Part shown: piece by piece, positions 1-11,950 of the stretch
How the letters are laid out: the number at the start of each line of letters is the position of its first letter
Position numbering within the stretch: position 1 is the first letter of the stretch
Origin: Scytalidium lignicola
Lineage: Eukaryota; Ascomycota; Leotiomycetes
Assembly: GCA_002812745.2 (NCBI GenBank)
Contig: NCSJ02000172.1
Coordinates: 1 to 64,000, forward strand
Direction of reading: 5' to 3'
DNA length: 64,000 bases
Program-made: the position numbers and the translations under genes
Notes under the pieces: generated by a model
The model's input: the letters and a program-made list of their open reading frames with translations, nothing else
The model's database searches: none
Told to the model about the DNA's origin: nothing

Positions 1-2894
1 AATATTCTTCAGGTATATGTTTTATAGTATTGTCAACATGGACAGCTCTTAAAGATATAATTTCTTCTAAGAAAGTAATCATACTTGTTCTCTAATCAAC
101 TATTGAATTATGCTTCCTTATTCATTTGATCCTTAATATAACCTGATATATTCTTAACTTTATAATATTAAAAGATATCTTTTCTTAATAGCTTTTGTTA
201 TACCTTATATTTAAGTTTTAAGTTTGAATGTTAATATACTTTTGAACTTTAATATTATTCACTAATAATATCAGATAGTTATTGTCTTTAACTCTTATAC
301 TAAGTCTAAGTCATTTTACAACTTGTTTATTGATGAAGTTTCTTTTAACTCCTGAATTGATTAAGGCCTTTACTAGTTTTTTACATAATGTTATGTTGAT
401 ATATAATGAACTTTTACTGTTTATAGAGTAAAGATTGATGTTTCTAGCATTGTCAATTGACATATCATCATTGATCTTCAGGTTTTTAGTATTTTCTTCT
501 AATTTCTTAAAGAGTATTATTTGTTTTTTAACAAGATTTCTTAGTCTTAGTCCATCTAAACTTCTATCATTCATAAAGGTATATACATCTTGTATCCATT
601 TTGCTATTTCATTCTTTAAGTACTCCTTTATCTTAGTAATAAAGATGTTATTTTCTATGAGAATTCTTTCTGCAGAATTCAAAGAGTATATTATTACTTC
701 TTAGTTGAATTGTTAGTCAATCCTTTGTATTAACTCATCTTTTCCTAATAACATAATAAGTACTTCTAAAGGTAGTGAATCTTCTTCTAGTTCATTAACT
801 GTAAGTAATACTTTTACATCTTAGTTAGCTGGTTTGACTACAACCTTAACTAGTTCCCTTTATATTTGTTGGATATAATATTCTTTAGTTTTAAGTAGTT
901 ATTCAACTGATTTCCTTAAGCCTTAGATTTCTCTATTCTGTGTTTCTACTTTTAATTAGTCTTGTTAGTAGGTTATTATTAGAAGTCCTTCATGTTGTAT
1001 ATTATATCTTCTTTATATAATATAACTTAGTCCTTCTTCAATTACTATCCAAGTGTCCTTGAGCATTTAATCAAAATCATCTTGGATTTAAGTTCTTTCT
1101 ACAGATAAGAGGAATTTGTATAATCCTTTCTTTATAACAATACTTTGTAAGTTAGTCTTATAAACTAAAGTAAGATCCTCAAGATTAAGTTCTTATTCTT
1201 CAACTGTTACTTCTTCTTATTATATAGTTTTATAAAGTTAACTCTTGTCCAGGATTTCCTATCCTCTTAGTCCTCTTATACTAATTGTAAAATAATATTT
1301 CAAGATTAATAATTCTTCAGAAACAAGATATTACTCTGTTGGTATAGCCTTAAACTCTGTTAGCATAATCATCTAGATTCTACTGACTCTTAGTATAGAT
1401 CTTTATTTATTTAGGCTAACAACCTTCTTTTGATTCTGAGGGTATTATATATACTAAGTCCTTCTTATTAATACAGAACTTGTTTCTAAGATTCTTGTTA
1501 TTACTATCTTATTTACATTAGTTTCAATAATAACTTCTGGTATAATTATCAAGTCCTAACAATCCTCTTCTTCTTCTGAGGAATTCCTTTTATTATTTAA
1601 ACTTTCCTCTTTTGATAATTCTGATAAGATATCCATAATTCTTAGGATTCTTATAACTCTAACTTTAACTGATATACTTATCTTATTGTCCTTCTTATGA
1701 GTATTTGTTATATGTCTAGATATTTTGTACTTGAAATATAATTTGTTTTTTCTTCTCTTATCAAGTTCTTCAAAGGAGATTTTAAAGGAATTCCCTTTCT
1801 TACTTCTTCCTTCAAAGTACTTCTTTTCCTTTCCTTTAAAGGTCTTTCCTTTCTTCATGGCATTTAACTTTATAAAGTCTTTATAATTCTTCTTTCTGTT
1901 AGTCTTCCTTCTGTTAAAGTAAGACCTTCTTTTCTTGTCCAAGATTATCTTATATTATTCATTTCTAATCTTGATAAATAAGTCAATAAGGGTGTTAAAT
2001 GTAATAATTATAAGTTGTCAATACAGTTCTTCTTTGATAAAGTCCTTCAATCTGGTTTTATACTAGTGTATATATACTTCTTTCCTTTAGTTGACTAATA
2101 TTGTATATTAATAATAAAGTATTATATATTCATTAAGACTTTTGGTTTGCTTAAGGTAAGCTAATTATCTTTTAGTATTCCTTTTCTTGTCAACATCTTT
2201 ATACAAGCATTTGAGTTCTCCTATGTAGTTTTCCTAACTCTTAAGGATGTTTCTTACTCCTTGGTTTGTTATTCCTCTGTTTGTAGTAAACTATTTGTCT
2301 TTAAAGGGTTAAAACCAAGTTTCAGCTACTTCTCTTAAGTATGTAGATGCTTATAGGACCTTATGTATGTCTTCAAGTAACAAATGATCATTTAATACCA
2401 AATAAGTTCTTGTTTACATAAGATATACTTTAAGCTTTTTTTTTGTCTTTATAGAACAGGTTTAGCCTAGTGATTTTAACTTCTTTAAGTATTGTTATTA
2501 AAGCTTGTTTGACATTGTCTTCTAGTTCAAAGTCTAGATTAGGGTCTGGACTTGGAGCTTTTGATACTGGCTTTAGGTCAGGTTTAGGTAATGGAGGTGT
2601 TAGTTTCTTTCTTGTAGCTCTTGACGATTCTTCAACAGTTAATCCTTTTGTTAACTTAGTAAGTTGTTTTAGTAGTATAATAACTTCTTTTAACATTCCT
2701 TCTTAGGTATTAACTTCTTTAATAGTCTGGTTCTTACCTTGGTCTTCTTCAGAACTATCTTCTGAACTTTCCTCAGATATTTCCTTAGATCCCTCTTCAG
2801 ATTCTTCTTCAAAGCCTTCTTCAAAACCTTCTTTAGGTTGTTGTTTATTATTGTTATCCACTGGTATGTCTGTTCTCAAATCCTGATTTATCAA
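1..2894 (-). mobile_element. Ty3/gypsy LTR retrotransposon relic (gag region, RIP-like decay)
   Basis: This AT-rich tract reads on the minus strand as a broken gag region and runs off the left edge. At 2430-2894 there is an acidic Glu/Ser-rich segment, then a Pro/Lys segment, interrupted by stops. Near 2300 a piece reading LREVAETWF resembles the gag core of fungal gypsy elements. At 1556-1942 a 128-codon open stretch is Lys/Arg-rich (KGKEKKYFEGRSKKGN) and ends in LYFKYKISRH. There Tyr stands where a gag zinc knuckle has Cys (C-x2-C-x4-H), as expected from G-to-A changes of TGY codons. Many TAA/TAG stops and the low GC point to repeat-induced point mutation. The open stretches are remnants, not functional genes. 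Reverse transcriptase could not be recognised in 1-1500. Confidence 0.7.
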
Positions 2895-2912
2895 GATAGG
2901 TAATGTTCAAAA

Positions 2913-3187
2913 TGTTACAAAACTACGTTATCCAGATTACTGGATAGCTAAGAGTAAGGTAGATGTTCAAGGACAACGGAAACGTATAACACACAAGCAG
3001 GTTACCAGGTCGAAGATAAGATACAGTAATATATTTAAGTTGAACACAAGGAGTCTACTCTTATGTTCTTATAGTATGCTTATATAGATAATGAAATACA
3101 GTTGGATCGTTGGATTACCTTGATCCCCCGATCCAGGTCCCTGGATCATTGGATCACTCTGATCCAGTGATCCCAGTCACATGACCT
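2913..3187 (-). repeat. Probable 5' LTR of the gypsy relic
   Basis: This segment of higher GC lies immediately upstream, on the minus strand, of the gag relic. Read on that strand it begins near GTCATGTGACTGGG, carries a run of GGATC-type repeats (3110-3175), has a TATA-like box TATATAAGC (3078-3086), and ends in TGTAACA, a plausible LTR terminus. The order promoter, transcript start and gag fits an LTR. The partner LTR would lie outside the window, so the exact ends are uncertain. Confidence 0.55.
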
Positions 3188-3189
3188 TT

Positions 3190-4129
3190 TAATTGTTAGG
3201 TTCTCTATGCACACCTGCCGTGTACCAAGCCTCAGGCCTACACCAATTAGCTTGTTCGGTCAAACCCATAATATAGAGACTCTTCCAAGAAAAGATCTGG
3301 CTATGTCAATCTCGTTATATACATTGTATATAACTGATATTCTCATTATCAACCTGTCACTTGTGACAAGAATGTTTAGACGATGTGACTCTGCTTTAGA
3401 TACGCTGAATGTAGAATAAAGCATGATATAATCGTTTTTCATGTCTTGTAACATATCAATTACAGATCAAGACCAGTCTGGGACCTAGGACAATAAGTTA
3501 GGCTGAAGCTTAAAGGTTTAGCAGAATGAGAGGAGCAATATATGACCTTGCTGAAGTAAAGCTACTATTGTCGATGTGTAGACTTTAGCACAAGACTTGG
3601 TATAGTCTGGAAAGATACCTCTTTGTTTCAAATCCTCTTTATCAGATGCCAGGCTCAAGAGAGCAAATATCTTGTCTTGTGGATTTGTTGACTTTAAGTG
3701 GTGAGGTCTATGGCGACGAAGATTAATACTCTTAACACAAGTAGTATGAAGAAGAGTTGTTAGTGAGAACTAGCTGTATCTATATATATTCCATGACAAG
3801 AGCATAACAGTTAGTTTGTAATGGAATAGTTTGGTAGAAGCTTCTAAATGATACTTTATTAATGATTATTTATTTGTAAAAAANCTTCTGTCCGAAGATT
3901 AACCAAAAAGCTTAATATGTATTGATAATTACATTATATTGATGTCAAGAAATCCTTTTAATTTTGCAAATGAACTTTACATTCTCTGGAAGGGTGATTT
4001 CCTGCAAAACCCATATCCATCCTCATTATAGTCAAGTAAAAAGATGTTTTATTCTAGTAATTAGTAATAGATTGTCTTGTTAATGTTATCTACTTATAGA
4101 GTAAAAGAGATTGTCTAATTCTTGCCGAC
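3190..4129. other. AT-rich intergenic stretch, no gene seen
   Basis: Mostly AT-rich with scattered short frames (for example 3207-3454) that resemble no family. One N in an A-run at 3884. The left part may be retrotransposon flank and the right part the decayed 3' end of the HET pseudogene. Confidence 0.4.
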
Positions 4130-4739
4130 GAATAATCTGTATGTTGTCATTTATTGTACTTATAATAATACTTGATTGGTTTTAGTTATAAACAGTGAGT
4201 GTTTGAGATGTCAAACTTCGCTAAATCTCTAGATGTAGACTTTTCTTGTTATCAATACTGTAAGCTTTTGCTTTCTTGCTAAAAGAGTTTAAATAATCTA
4301 TAACAGAGTTGCTATCAGTATCTGCTAGCCTAAGTTAAGTAAACACTTGTTTAGCTTGTAGATAAATATCCTTCATGAGCTTGACTTACCAGCCTTTTTC
4401 TTCATTGTTGATTTGGTCAATGTACAGAAAGTTGATCCAGATAACGACATACTAATTAACAAGCCTGAGCACCATTATAGCATTATACAAGTTTTTTGTC
4501 ATGTGAACTAGCAAATTTTTGACGAGTATTATACGCTTATTCTCCGGACTTCCCCAGACGTAGGACAAAGCTACAAATTGCAGCTTTTTAGGAAGGCAAG
4601 CATGAAAAATATGATAAGCAGGTATTAGTCTGCGCTTTTCATCATGGGCTTGTAACAGGATTTTCAGAAGTCTGATTTCGTTATTAGAACAATCTAATAG
4701 AAGATATTGAATTATCATAGTCTGGAAATATAAAAACAA
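4130..4739 (-). pseudogene. HET-domain pseudogene fragment
   Basis: The minus strand encodes a recognisable HET (heterokaryon incompatibility) N-terminus including QFVALSYVWGSPENKR, followed by LVHMTKNLYNAIMVLR. The frame then meets TAG at about 4452 but homology continues in the same frame: VVIWINFLYIDQINNEEKGW, stop, VKLMKDIYLQAKQVFT, stop, LRLADTDSNSVIDYLNSF. The stops fall where HET proteins have Gln or Trp, and Tyr replaces the Cys of the usual L-C-I-D/N-Q motif. These are all C-to-T or G-to-A changes, as RIP would make. The family acts in fungal allorecognition and programmed cell death. This copy cannot make an intact domain. Its 3' limit is unclear. Confidence 0.75.
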
Positions 4740-5960
4740 GAGACACAGACGAAAAGAAAAATGAAGGCCAATATTAAAAGTGTGTAATAATGTCCTCAGC
4801 CTTAATAGGACATAACAACTAGTACTTCACATAAGCTCAAAGTAAACATAAAGAGAACAGCAAAAGAGTTATCTTTCCAATACAATAACTTGCAAAATCG
4901 GCTTTTTACTATAAACTTAATATCTTCGTACTTTTTAGAGAAGAAGAGGCTTTGAAAAGCTTACCAGAAACTCCAACCAAAACCCGGGTCTAAGTTAGTC
5001 CGAACTGCTCTTATGTGCTTTGTTAAGAGTTTCTGAACACTCGTACATCTTACACTTGTACGTGACTATTCTACTAATCATGGATGGTTAGGTCTAAATA
5101 TAGTCTTGTTTGCACTGACTGGACTAGCGTTTCACTATTGCTAGAATTACAATTCTAGCTAATCGAATGATTGATCTCAGGTAAATGTATACGGTAAATT
5201 GGGGGGGAAATCAAGTAGAATTGAATCAACTGTACAGAACAAAAATACAGCAAAGGGTAGCTATCTATATAGTCCTTATGAAACTTAACTGAATCAATAG
5301 CTTATTTCCAATACGTTTTCAGTGCATTTAGTGAGACGTGTGCTTTGCTTCTGGAAGTTCGAAGGCTTCGTGTGAGCCGCAGGCTAGCACTCTCGTGATT
5401 TTAGTTTAGTCTTATAACTTTTGTCATACTAGCACTATTATAGTTAGTTGATCTTTAGCCATCAGATAAGCGAATTATTCCTTGTAATAAGAATGTCACC
5501 TGAAAATTTTGTCATTGCCTAAGTTATACGGCTGCAATGGCTGACAAAGCTTGACGTTGCCGGCATCGGTACTGACGGGTGACAAATATCATGTGTTAGC
5601 TAGATTGTGCTGACAAGTTACTATATCCATCAGTCCTGAAATACATTCCATCACTTTGCAACCAGATTTCGAGTTACCAGCAGTCTGGTCTGTCTACTTA
5701 TCATCCTAGTGTGGATACGGCCACGTATAACTTATTCAACATAAGACGGAAAATTCGTAAATGTGACCCATAAACGAGGAAAATCCATCAAGTATTTCTC
5801 TTCTATAAATTGCCTGTAAAGTACAAAGTAGGGTAGACAATTCAATTCAATTATTGCATTCCCGCACATGTGGTATATCAAATGTTCCGACACCGCGATT
5901 CCCATCGTAATTTACTTATGCTTGCGTATTCCGCCTTTGATTTTGCTCTTGCCTTCGACG
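4740..5960. other. Intergenic stretch without a recognised gene
   Basis: No convincing coding frame. Positions 5912-5960 are still related to StuA on the minus strand, beyond the stop of the HET-APSES gene (see that entry and the findings). The rest is AT-rich with no repeat or RNA gene that I could recognise. Confidence 0.5.
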
Positions 5961-7319
5961 TTACGTAGTAGCCATCTCCGCATTCGTACGCGTCTGGTTG
6001 GTGGGATGGTATAAAAGAGCCCCAATATTATGAACAAATAAAGGATATAATGACTCAGTAATCTTTTCCTTGTTGGCGAAGTCAAGAGCACGCTCAAATG
6101 GAATCCTGAACAATAGTCAGTAGTGCTATAATATTCTCCTACTTTTATAACCCACCAAACTCCCTTTAAGTGCATTGGTCCAATCTTGACAATATGTCTC
6201 ATTTTCTCGCTCTTGAGAACACTGTCTCTCAGTCCAGCAACTTTCAAAAGGGTTGTACCATTTATCATATGATTGTCTACCCGTTTTCATTAGTACGTTT
6301 AGAGGTCTTTAAATAAAATCCATACCTTCACGTCTGGCAACAACAACTCCTTTGGCTTCAACCTGAAAACATAGGGTTTTTTCATCTCCCCACAAGGTCG
6401 CAGTGATTCTTGGTTTCATGCCTGGTGGAGCGATTTGACCAGTCGTATCAAAGCTTTGCTGGGGTCTATATTTTTGTTCCTGAATACGCATCTTGTCATC
6501 ACGAGGATCAGTGATGCGTAAGGGTCGGATATATTCTTGGTCTTTTTTGATCTCCTCCCGGAGTCGCTTGAACGCCTTCTTTCTTCCTTCGCCATAGATT
6601 AACGGTATAAAGACGTCAAAAATGCCCAACATGGAATATGCTTTATCCTCTTCAAGTTTAGTCTGGCGGCGTTCTATCCATGAGAATCGCTCATCGACAC
6701 TAAACTGAGATAAAACTACTCCCTGAAGTGCTAAATTAGCAATGCCGGTTATCTCGTGAATAAGTTGCCTTAAAGATTTTTTGTCACCAAGTCGCTGGTG
6801 TTCTCGGGAGAAGAATTCGACCGAACTTGGGGCAAGAAGCTCTTGGAGCGTCCAACCGCGTTTAAACCATCTGCTTTTCCGAAAATCTAATTCCCAAGGC
6901 TGCAGACTAAGCTCCTCGTTGGTATCGAAGGTAAGGCTTGAGACATCCGATAGATAGACGTAACATCGAGTAGCGTAACGGTACCAGCGAAACATTGAAT
7001 TGATAGCTTGTGAGAGTTCGGTATAGTTTGCCTTGTTAATGCAACAAGTGTCAATCCAAAAGTATTGCAAGTCATCTTGTCTAGCTTGTTCTCCACAGAA
7101 TCGGATTTTCTCATAACCAAGCTTATCCTTACCAGTTCCACTTGTCAAGTCTTCGAAGGTGACTTCCTCGGCATCCACCCCCCATGTATGCGAAAGTATC
7201 GCATATGGAGGGATTATATCGTCGCCAACCAAATCCTTAGTGAGACTGAATTCGCCAGTGTTGCTGCGTTGCAAAAGACGCATTGTTTCGGGCGGGAATG
7301 GTGTTTGGCTGGACCCCAC
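5961..7319 (-). CDS. HET domain-APSES (StuA-type) fusion protein
   Basis: Three exons: 7319-6326, 6276-6156, 6105-5961 (introns of 49 and 50 nt with ACTAATG and CTGAC branch sites), total 1260 nt, 419 aa. Residues about 39-185 form a complete HET domain: YAILSHTWG, then [11 protein letters not shown], then [15 protein letters not shown], and [20 protein letters not shown] just beyond. From residue 287 the protein becomes StuA-like: [20 protein letters not shown], then [24 protein letters not shown] across intron 1, [26 protein letters not shown] across intron 2, and [25 protein letters not shown] domains (StuA, Phd1, Sok2) bind DNA and direct development. HET domains trigger incompatibility death. 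Compared with StuA, about four residues (T-R-G-R) are missing near residue 347, and the protein stops right after the domain. MRLLQRSN at residue 13 (7283) is the usual HET start and could be the true one. No such fusion is known to me. Expression is untested. Confidence 0.88.
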
Positions 7320-8235
7320 GCGGCAGGTTAGGTAGAGAGATAGGAGCGTCCCAATCTGGTCTTCGACTGAGAACTAGCTTGCTGTTGAGTTGTCTGTTTA
7401 GTTGGGAGTGGAGGTTGGATTGAGGCTTGCGCTCATATCGACTCAGCTGAGCGGCAGCCTCGCGACAATAGTAGCATCGATAGGGAGGGTTGGGCATCGC
7501 TGCGAACGCAACTGGTCGCTTGCAATTCGCTGCAGGAAATCATGGTTGGCTGTTTAGACCATTCGATGTTCATGCGCGACTGAGCTACAGTATGATTTGA
7601 TTTTGTGACCGCATGCTTCAGTGGGAAAGTAAAAAAGGATCACACAATTTCAAGAAAGCAGAATAGTCAACATGAATCGAGGAATCCAAAAATGGGAACA
7701 AGTCAAGAAAACAGATTGTGCGATCGGTGCCTTTTGGAGACTTATCCTTAGGCAGAAATTCGGTCAGTCGTCCGCAATTAGCAAGATGGTACCGATATCG
7801 GCTAATGTCATGCGTTTGTCAGCATTTTCAGCCGTATAACTCAGGCAAAAGTGAGCTTTTCATGTGACATGCTTGTTTTGGTAATAATTCGCTTATCTGG
7901 TGGTTGATATCTAGCTAACCATAATGGTATTAGGGTGCTAAAAATTATGAGATTAAACTAAAATTATTGAGTTTTTTTTTAGGGAAGCCGATTTAGCGGC
8001 TCACTGTACTTTTGTCAACACTATAATTATTAGCGCCGCCAGTCCCCAGATATGTAAATTCTTAAAAGAAAACCTCTCACAATTATTCAATGCTGCCTAC
8101 TATAAGAGGCTACGGTATGTGCACGAGCTTGGATATGCAAGTGAATTAACCTCCATGGATAAACCCCCTTTAAACGCCTAAGGAAATGATATTACAGAAC
8201 AAACTTTGAAGGAAAACTTATATCTATGTCCGTGA
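7320..8235. other. Intergenic: promoter side of HET-APSES, 3' side of Kex2
   Basis: The minus-strand frame at 7237-7497 overlaps the start of the HET gene and has no recognisable features. The rest holds AT-rich sequence and a T-run near 7972. No other gene or repeat seen. Confidence 0.45.
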
Positions 8236-10842
8236 TCACTTTTTCAACGGCCCCTTCTCATCCATTTCATCATCCTCATCATCATCATCGTCGTCTCCAA
8301 TAACATGCTGCTCATCTTCACTCCCTCTGCGGCCTTCATACCTCTTCTCCCCGCGACCTTGAGCACCATGTTCTGCCTCATCGTCATCATCTCCATCACT
8401 GAACTCGTCCTCATCTTCGCTTCCCGCAGCAAAGGCATCGTACAACTCTCCGGCCCGACGCTTGGTCTTCTGGCCTCTCGTCCTTCTAGTACCGCCATTC
8501 AAACCCTCTGCCTCATCTTCTTGAATTAAATCGAATTCCCATTCGTCTCTTGGATTATTCCTTAGCCGCTTGCGTCGTGCAAGGTAGAGGTAGATGCCTA
8601 GTCCGATACAGAAGACGAGGATCAGAGCTGCGGAGCCATAGATCCAGATCTGAGTCTTGGAACTGACACCAAAAGTGGGGAAGAAAGAGGGTAGCCAGCT
8701 TGAGTTGGTTGTCTCTTTTTCCGAACCAGGTGCAGTGGGAGTTGGTTGCGGAGCTTCTTGTCCTGTTGGTTTAGAGTTCACAGGACGGGTAGGGTGATCT
8801 GTAGGGTGTGTTGGTAGATCCGATTTGGTTGGTTCTGGGGCTACAGTTGCCGTAATTCCGGGGATTGTGGTTGTAGAGATGAGATCGGCATGGTTGTCGT
8901 CATCTTCTTCATTGGGCATAGGGAGGAGTGTCGCTTTATCGGCATTGATAGCTTCACCCCAAAGTTTGAGGTGCCAGTCAATGAATGTGCCATTAAAGTC
9001 GTTGACAACCGTGTCTTTGACATAAACCGTCCATGTTCCAACACCACTTTCACCCCTAGCGAAGGTTAGAATTGATATATAAGAGGCAAGGTACGAAGAT
9101 ACCTACCAGTGAACAACAGACATGAACGTCCAATCATTATACCCTTCAGTGCTCATATCCAACCGACGTGTAGCAGAAAGATGACTCGTTACTTTATTCG
9201 GGCTAACAAGGTCAACACTCAAATCACCTCTCCTGCCATGAGCCACATTCATCGTAACTGTGACATGTTCTACACGTGCGAGATTGGCAGCTTTCAAGTC
9301 TTCCTCATATATGAGGAATGACACGGCTAATCCTTGGTCACCTTGTGGAATCTCTTGGTTCACGTGGATCCAAGGAGAAAAGAACCAAGTTTGAGGTTTG
9401 ACCTTCTCGAATGTTTTGGCTGCTTCAACAATAGCCCACGAGTCTAACTTTCCATACCCAAAGGTGTGGCTGAATTTCTTCCCAATAGCTGTCGTTGCCC
9501 ATTCTCCAGTTTCCAGGTTAACGGGAACGGCAGTATCTATGGTTAAGTATTGCATGTCTCGCCACGTCAAGTCGGGACGGATCTGCAAGACTAGAGCGAA
9601 GATACCAGCTGCAAGAGGAGCAGCAGCAGATGTACCTCCATGACCTGCATAACATTGGTTTATACCAACATCCGTAGTATGAATAGCATCGCCGCTTCCA
9701 CTGCTGTAGGTCACCACCAGCTGTGCTGAGCATTTCTCGGAGTAATAGGGATGAGCTCCCTTTCGGTCGATTGCGCCAACAGTAATGCTGTAGATACTGT
9801 TGGTATATCCGTCAAAATTACAGTTATCCCCTGCCGCAGCGCCGTTTCCAGATGCGAACACATAAATGGAGCCTAAGCCTCCACGTCCCTTTTGGACAGC
9901 ATTTAGCATTGCCCTCTTGATAATAGTCCCGGGTGCATCCATGGCAACTCCATCATCGGGCGGGCCCCATGAACATGAGTATATCTGGTTTTTCTGATAT
10001 GCATAATTCAAAGCGATGGCCTCATCAGCGTCCGTGATCAGCTTCGAAAGGATCCGGAGTCCGGAAATCCTCGAGTTGTATGCCACACCCACGCCACACA
10101 CGTTGTTCTTGACAGCAGCAATCTCACCGGCACATCGTGTGCCATGTCGATCATCAGCCAGCCTTGGCTTTGGTTCGAAGGTATTGTCATTGAAATCGTA
10201 TGATCCCTCAGCAAAATAGTTGTCCTTCAAATCGTCGCTGTACATATCCAAGCCATCATCTACCATGGCAACAGTGGAGTTCTGACCCGTAATGCCTTCC
10301 AGCCATACACCGGTGACGTTGACATCGTGCCCAAGCTGCACAGTGTTGAGCAAATGCCACTGTTCCGTGAATATAGGGTCGCTGATTTGTAACGCCGTTG
10401 CGATGGCCTTCTGCTTAGACACTGTAGCGGGATCAGGAGGATCGTCCTGTCTCTCAACTATAGCAGCTACATATCCTTCTGGAGGTGGAGGTATGAGCCC
10501 TCTCTTCTCTAACCGCGGCTTTAACTTTTGTTTCTGCGCGAATTTCACTCCATCCAGGATATCAGAGTCCCCTAGGGAACGCTTCCGCGTCCTCCTCTCC
10601 TTCAAAGCAGTTCGCACGATATCGTGGTCGTGCTTGCCACACGAAAAGATATGGTGGCCGTCCAACTCGCCCAGCTGGCCCTCATGTGTTAATCCCAGCG
10701 ACACAGCGACTTGTGCCGGGTTGGTAGTTGAGTCAAGCTCCAAGACATAGTAATCTTGAGTGCTGTAGTCGCGCGCTCGAAGCTCAGCGGCAGCAACAAG
10801 CCAGCCCAGCCCCATGAGGCCGAGGACGGCGTGCACCTTCAT
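8236..10842 (-). CDS. kex2: Kexin (Kex2-type) dibasic processing endoprotease
   Basis: Two exons, 10842-9107 and 9055-8236, separated by a 51-nt intron in the P domain (HW|GE). Product 851 aa. The start at 10842 is chosen because it opens a signal peptide (MKVHAVLGLMGLGWLVAAA). An upstream in-frame ATG at 11028 would bury it. A prodomain ends at a dibasic site (LEKR, residue 114). The subtilisin-type catalytic residues are Asp195 (VDDGLD), His233 (DRHGTRCAGE) and Ser405 (GGTSAAAPLAAG), and SWGPPDDG supplies the oxyanion Asp typical of kexins. A P domain follows, then a Thr/Pro-rich stalk, one transmembrane helix (IWIYGSAALILVFCIGLGIY) and an acidic cytosolic tail. Kex2 works in the late Golgi, cutting after Lys-Arg in secreted proproteins. 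All key residues are present. Confidence 0.95.
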
Positions 10843-11950
10843 ATTTCCGGATGGATGTGATGGTTCCTGCGGAACCTCGAGGTTGATGAAGATTTTGCGA
10901 GGCCTAAAGGACACGCATTGATGATAGTCGATATGTCGAAGGAGGAAGGAGGATAAGTTGCCAGCACGTGGATTTAACCAGTCGGAAGAAGGGTTACGAG
11001 TGCTCGATTGCCGACCGTACAGTGCCACAGTACTTCCCCAGTTGCAGTGACCGGGGGCCCGTAGAAGATGGTTAGTTTGGCAAGTGTTTGGCTAGAGCCA
11101 GGCGTGCGAAAATAGAATGGTGCAACGGGTCGATTGCAAGAGCTTTCTTCAACGAGATGCTTTCGATGCTGATCTGGCCTTGGAGTGTTTCAAGCAAGCC
11201 TCGTTCTATTCTGGGAAGTAACAGATTGCCACCCCTCCGCCACTCACACCACACACCACACAAAAGTGTCAAACCCGTTTCGGACTCAGGTCTGTCGGTC
11301 CACCAGCCACATCCACAGCAAAAAGGAAAAAAAGCTTCCGCCACTCCTCGTCCAACCAACCAGTGCCAACTCACCAGCCACACTCACACACCACTAATCA
11401 ACTCCGCTGCGCAGTCCTCTTCGGAAGGGAGGAAGCAGCCGCTGGGGCTGAACGTCACCGCCTCCTCCACCTTGGATTGGGTCGATTATTCTTCTCTTGG
11501 GGTCGTGCTGTGCTGTGCTGGAAAGCCTCCCCAACCTCCAACCTCCTCGATTTCCCTTGGGAATCTCTTCAAATTTTCTCCTGCAACTTTTGCAGCTGTC
11601 CTGCAGATGTCAGATGTGTCATTCATCAACACAGCGAGTAGTCAGGACCCTGTTGCTCCCACCCATTTTCTCTAGTTGTTTTGCGTTTTCTTGAGCTGCA
11701 AGCTCTTAACCTTCCGTTTAGTCGCGCGGCTTTACATTCGGTGACGACGCAACCATAAACGGTCTTCATGATTCAGTCTTATTTGTAAAATCACTAAATG
11801 TTGTTTTTGAATTGGTTTAATTGAGTCTTTGCCGTTTTCTGCGATCAAATCAGAGCACCGATATCTTACTTCACTTTTGCGCTGCCCTCACCGCATGCGA
11901 CAATACCTCTCACGACAAATTCTCCCACTTCTCCTCGTCAGTTATCAGCA
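10843..11950. promoter_or_regulatory. Divergent promoter region between kex2 and the PhoD-like gene
   Basis: A 1.1 kb head-to-head interval. It is pyrimidine- and CA-rich around 11220-11600 (CCAC/ACAC-rich, then CT-rich leader tracts), typical of fungal promoters and 5' leaders. Open frames across 11072-11694 on both strands are low-complexity by-products of this composition. No specific factor site is claimed. Confidence 0.5.

Follow-up and report, generated by a model that had tools for sequence, protein, structure and literature searches.

The window, that is, the whole stretch of DNA analyzed here, comprises 64,000 nt of the Scytalidium lignicola contig NCSJ02000172.1. Near its left end it contains a spliced gene on the minus strand with three exons, running from an ATG at 7283 to a stop codon at 5961 and encoding 407 amino acids. 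The order of parts in this protein is a HET domain, about 20 residues of a linker known from the region ahead of NACHT, and a StuA-type APSES domain. The features are as follows:

6326..7283, minus strand: exon 1, with HET, the pre-NACHT linker and the start of APSES in an unbroken frame
6277..6325, minus strand: intron 1, 49 nt, GT/AG, at the position of the first core intron of the genome's own stuA (89 nt there)
6156..6276, minus strand: exon 2, with the helix-turn-helix part of APSES
6106..6155, minus strand: intron 2, 50 nt, GT/AG, at the position of the second core intron of the own stuA (80 nt there)
5961..6105, minus strand: exon 3, with the final part of APSES (stop codon 5961-5963)
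6534..7283, minus strand: HET part, residues 1-250, with none of 81 conserved columns changed and a confident structure model
6471..6533, minus strand: linker, residues 251-271, which precedes NACHT in HET-NACHT paralogs
6471..6478, minus strand: junction, where DNA homology to HET-NLR genes ends (6478) and DNA homology to stuA begins (6471), with an A5 run inside
5961..6470, minus strand: StuA-derived APSES part, residues 272-407, including both introns
6229..6230, minus strand: point where 12 nt (TRGR) are missing in comparison with each of 119 StuA sequences
5928..5960, minus strand: about 11 codons of StuA homology beyond the stop (by blastn, the match extends to 5938)
7284..7390, minus strand: upstream region, which aligns with the DNA ahead of a HET paralog on C469

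We regard this fusion, as a feature of the assembly, as real with high confidence. HET and APSES share a single frame of one exon (ORF 6309-7319 from a GTG; 6309-7373 from stop to stop), and Pfam recovered both domains in the spliced protein above their cut-offs, namely HET (PF06985, 53.2 bits against 22.5, in two stretches with the best one at residues 27-116) and KilA-N (PF04383, 30 bits against 23.8, residues 311-387). A deposited S. lignicola protein, B7463_g8127, is marked partial and is identical to the fusion over 407 residues. No NACHT or NB-ARC domain was found in the protein by Pfam, and no NCBIfam family was found for it. The original prediction of one gene joining HET to StuA, with two introns in the StuA part that have clean GT/AG ends and keep the frame, is thus borne out. 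Its start, which had been placed at the upstream in-frame GTG (7319), is moved to the ATG at 7283 as the likely one.

The HET half, which had been predicted to be complete, shows no difference from 43 relatives at the 81 columns that at least 97% of them conserve, and one difference in 108 columns under a looser cut (93% of 44 rows, the fusion included). Its structure model is confident (pLDDT of 80-95 for 10-residue blocks, with one block at 62), and structures with deoxyribosyltransferase and TIR folds are among its best matches, at low Z. HET domains are described, in passages of PMC9815663, PMC10197012 and PMC4986451, as death effectors with a remote likeness to TIR. The database relatives most alike (P0016, P0017, P0019, and P0020; 84-85% over residues 1-245) have, as predicted proteins, neither the linker nor NACHT. 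Among paralogs in the genome, the alignment with the one on C469 begins at 7390, ahead of the ATG, with 75% DNA identity. HET matches number at least 150 in the S. lignicola genome, where 150 of 228 candidates were scored. Proteins P0002, P0003, P0008, P0021, and P0059 have tandem HET, with the same HET part matched twice, in distinct stretches. A further locus (L038, C368:10414-11145) has a HET copy interrupted by stops and, after it, sequence judged by eye to be WD40-like, with no NACHT.

The original prediction was silent on the identity of the residues ahead of the StuA part, which prove to be the pre-NACHT linker of a receptor gene. The sequence following the HET match was read in 31 loci including the fusion itself (30 of 59 matches, plus C11). 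Fusion aside, five alignments reach residue 271 or further. Four of them (C543, C566, C469, and C11; 60-71% identical to the fusion across the HET part) carry the whole linker, and all four then continue with K|GGLL...SYxWIL, where NACHT begins. In the fifth (C61), the end has no likeness to the linker and NACHT is absent. At most other loci the match stops at about residue 245-250 and different sequence follows, while the database relatives P0004, P0005, P0013, and P0023 run on into GGLL. The linker is found, too, ahead of the NACHT of C88 (L058, 233500-238000), an NLR with an N-terminus other than HET, and so belongs to the NACHT module. Since the linker-bearing paralogs continue into NACHT, the fusion holds the first residues of this module, and its parent was probably a receptor gene cut there. 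Judged from these alignments, the parent was probably a HET-NACHT gene whose switch and sensor were swapped for StuA.

The junction is sharp at the DNA level. In comparisons within the genome, similarity to HET paralogs stops at 6478 and similarity to stuA starts at 6471, and the frame shared by the two parts depends on the A5 run between these positions. When remains of the C11 paralog's NACHT part were sought in positions 1-9000 of the window, nothing scored better than an E-value of 7. A reciprocal product of the recombination was also sought and not found. The genome has 16 NACHT matches, and the upstream sequence was read for three that lack a HET of this subfamily (C47, C88, and C158), the weaker matches on C52, C354, C388, C555, C177, C655, and C18 being left out. 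C88 has another N-terminal region there, C47 and C158 are full of stops, and none of the three has a stuA match at E ≤ 0.001; no StuA N- or C-terminal piece was found in the genome outside C93 at E ≤ 1.

An intact stuA gene of the genome lies on C93, with core introns at the same places as in the fusion. The APSES part of the fusion shares 111 of 127 core residues with the own StuA, a value tied among the own, Xylogone, Chlorociboria, and two metagenome StuA proteins, so that the donor may have been either the own stuA or that of a related fungus. A set of 119 StuA sequences was assembled for comparison (118 from the database and the own one; P0226, missing the anchor motif, was dropped), in which 99 of the 127 core columns are conserved in at least 99% of sequences. 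The fusion differs at 14 of these 99 columns (10 substitutions and four deleted residues), the own StuA at none. The core is therefore not whole, contrary to what had been claimed. In the helix-turn-helix, all 119 StuA sequences have MTRGRRDG, against L----RDS in the fusion, and changes are concentrated in this element (9 of 24 columns versus 5 of 75, p = 0.0007; 0.012 with the deletion counted once), as if the fold had been kept and DNA recognition dropped. The wing segment KIGPMHLKG and most of the APSES domain are kept. No recognizable StuA N- or C-terminal region is present in the fusion.

Passages of PMC4333399 name K62, R65, H53, and K56 of PCG2 as DNA contacts. These positions were located through an alignment to PCG2 (4ux5, 19 bits) with a numbering offset of 2 taken from the QXGXGXXQ wing motif, a correspondence inferred across APSES families. 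By this mapping, the gap would cover the match of K62 in helix B, and the match of H53 in helix A would be changed from K to T; the match of R65 would be kept, and that of K56 would be changed from N to K, as in PCG2. Loss of DNA binding by the tail is likely but, given that the wing segment and the match of R65 remain, not certain. A structure model of the APSES part failed, unlike that of the HET part.

The two halves have changed to different degrees. Not counting the deletion, substitutions affect 10 of the 95 near-invariant APSES columns that are retained, versus 0 of 81 HET columns (Fisher p = 0.002), a rough contrast, as the column sets differ in threshold and diversity (97% of 43 HET versus 99% of 119 StuA sequences). 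Within APSES, changes fall on 14 of 99 invariant versus 2 of 28 variable columns (p = 0.52); invariant columns are hit at least as readily as variable ones, which fits plain relaxation. Across 134 codons compared with the own stuA, 67 of 86 differences are at third positions, with 58 silent codons and 16 residue changes (pS = 0.74, near saturation; pN = 0.066). Such values mean that the sequences diverged for a long time under constraint, which may have happened in the donor, ahead of the join. Dating of the fusion by synonymous sites was considered and rejected, since a pS of 0.74 may have accrued in a donor StuA and neither dates the join nor proves selection. GC3 settles nothing, being 0.45 for HET, 0.39 for APSES, and 0.44 for the core of the own stuA.

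All 134 APSES codons are open in the fusion. When a neutral tail with 16 changed codons was simulated, it was still open, with no stops or frameshifts, in 4-21% of cases depending on the assumed indel rate, which makes selection on the StuA-derived tail only possible. The original prediction had the gene end at 5961; StuA homology continues for about 11 codons past this stop. The 12 codons beyond the stop still show five silent versus three residue changes. With conserved codons there, the stop seems to have arisen after most of the divergence, and the protein's end at 5961 looks accidental.

The suggestion that HET and APSES are not otherwise found together agrees with a check of domain architectures. 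No second protein with both was found among the best 120 of 7,986 matches in the full-length search, the best 120 of 930 in a search with the APSES region, or the best 120 of 5,948 in a search widened to longer proteins; the full-length and widened searches scored only the candidates sharing most words, and long domain lists were seen in part in the widened one. Among the matches listed, P0001 is the only protein with both PF06985 and PF04383. It is also the only one of the best 120 full-length matches whose alignment covers the APSES part; of the others, just P0069 extends beyond residue 290, ending at 304. No report of a fusion of HET with APSES, KilA-N, or StuA was found in the literature, with most subscription journals outside the scope of the search, and the terms APSES and KilA are absent from the main texts of PMC9815663, PMC4986451, and PMC12258605. 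On the sequences compared, HET plus APSES is a new combination of known parts, not seen elsewhere among the matches listed. A survey of Sordariales NLRs (PMC12258605) counted 185 non-canonical domains, of which 170 occur in only one to three proteins each, so a singleton is of a common kind and does not prove function.

The gene lies at the edge of an AT-rich region. The first 5 kb of the contig have 24-38% GC (26% in positions 1-2500 of the window), and the RIP composite index is 0.42 in 1-2500 and 0.06 in 2501-5000 and is negative in the fusion. A decayed HET copy (4239-4577, minus strand; 70.6 bits, three stops) is found 1.4 kb downstream of the fusion. The right flank consists of ordinary genes, with a subtilase first (10 of 40 open frames scanned). 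This neighbor (8236-11091, minus strand) is a Kex2-type subtilase with a P-domain (PF00082, PF01483), adjoined by a second open frame at 8236-9102. No partner receptor gene was recognized beside the fusion.

Our tentative preference, held at somewhat below even confidence, is that the protein may be a HET effector carrying a C-terminal bait derived from StuA. A break where NACHT begins in a receptor gene of HET-NACHT type would have been followed by in-frame joining to genomic DNA from a Leotiomycete-type stuA, introns included, that covers the APSES domain. If expressed, its product would combine an intact, TIR-like HET death effector with a StuA-like domain of altered DNA-contact helix in place of NACHT and repeats. 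Whatever binds StuA would also bind this C-terminal mimic, as a bait or docking surface; binding would cluster or unmask HET, which would then trigger local cell death. Both a bait role and the guidance of HET to StuA sites on DNA had been proposed earlier. The first is still hypothetical and fits the data; with HET intact while the StuA copy is altered in the helix-turn-helix, the bait role is favored and DNA targeting disfavored. A bait role is further supported by the sharp junction between two stretches that each have no close second copy, by the continuation of all four whole-linker paralogs into NACHT, by the unequal substitution of HET and APSES columns (0 of 81 versus 10 of 95), and by the open APSES codons with two GT/AG introns. 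It also has precedents: PMC10890737 describes Podospora BH as HET joined to a lectin-fold domain, a tested case of HET with a non-NLR specificity domain, and integrated decoys have been proposed for fungal NLRs (PMC12258605, PMC5658179).

Nearly as likely is a real but non-functional chimera, a truncated HET receptor whose tail is StuA debris left by illegitimate recombination; HET would then look intact because little time has passed or because selection acts on HET alone. Much that weighs against a bait favors this explanation. The fusion is confined to one genome among the matches listed, its stop falls within StuA-derived sequence with conserved codons beyond, and invariant StuA columns are freely changed, while the gene borders the AT-rich, RIP-like stretch with its decayed HET copy. 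The openness of some neutral tails in the simulations, the roughness of the column comparison with its one HET difference in 108 at the looser cut, the lack of a recognized partner receptor gene, and the failed APSES model also count against a bait. On the other side, a non-functional chimera has to accommodate an open frame, two introns with good ends, a HET half unchanged at all 81 columns, and the clustering of changes in the helix-turn-helix.

The idea that a working APSES domain guides HET activity to StuA DNA sites is weakened by these results, and we consider it very unlikely. It would draw on the kept wing segment, the R65 match, and the PCG2-like K at the K56 match, as well as most of the domain, but the TRGR deletion, within a motif present in every StuA sequence compared, takes the position matched to the K62 contact, and the match of the H53 contact is now T (passages of PMC4333399). 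A sequencing artefact, in which a chimeric join or a homopolymer error at A5 makes two genes look fused, is highly improbable. The genome is a draft assembled with MIRA from 200-bp Ion Torrent reads (PMC6256649) and an A5 run lies at the junction; however, no near-identical second copy exists of either side (long DNA matches reach at most 74-77% on the HET side and 67% for stuA, and short ones at most 91% over 44 nt), the other five CDS homopolymers of at least 5 nt keep the frame open, and the nearest N is more than 2 kb away. Recognizable StuA N- and C-terminal parts occur only at C93, and hence there are no orphan halves of a second stuA. Least likely of all is a mimic whose tail titrates StuA partners in a dominant-negative manner with HET incidental, which would suit an altered helix-turn-helix with the remainder kept, but not HET being the better conserved half.

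Returning to the fusion as a HET effector with a StuA-derived bait, we compared it with known systems. HET-NACHT receptors (fungal NLRs of the HET-E/HET-D/HET-R type) resemble it in HET, linker, and, for C469, upstream sequence; they have NACHT and repeats where the fusion has APSES. With StuA/Sok2/Asm-1 regulators it shares the core, intron positions, and an APSES/KilA-N score above cut-off, but it lacks their terminal regions and an intact helix-turn-helix, and is joined to HET. In Podospora BH, as described in the paper cited above, the non-NLR C-terminal domain sets specificity; in the fusion that place is taken by APSES. Integrated decoys include the WRKY domain of the plant TIR-NLR RRS1 (PMC8685902) and candidate PKinase and zinc-finger domains of fungal NLRs (PMC4246468, PMC12258605, PMC5658179). 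Similar to these, a duplicated cellular regulator or DNA-binding domain is joined here to a TIR-like or NLR death module: the intact stuA is at C93, and a related copy is attached to HET. Unlike these, the fusion has no NLR chassis and its DNA-contact helix is altered, and recognition of an effector is putative. The nucleotide-binding domain acts as the switch in NLRs (passages of PMC12258605), and the fusion has none. By analogy, it might represent a minimal bait receptor that works without such a switch, TIR-like HET plus a decoy copy of StuA, a master regulator of development, as a fungal counterpart of RRS1-WRKY, although we consider this rather doubtful.

If the protein were such a minimal receptor, something foreign, such as a virus, a bacterium, or another fungus, would target StuA. 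Were the gene used, it would point to StuA as a target of parasites or rivals of fungi, and the fusion would offer a small two-domain protein for testing the bait idea in fungal death effectors without the NACHT switch. Even if unused, the gene would still show a HET receptor cut precisely where NACHT begins, with its switch and sensor lost and the DNA-binding core of a regulator gained in their place.
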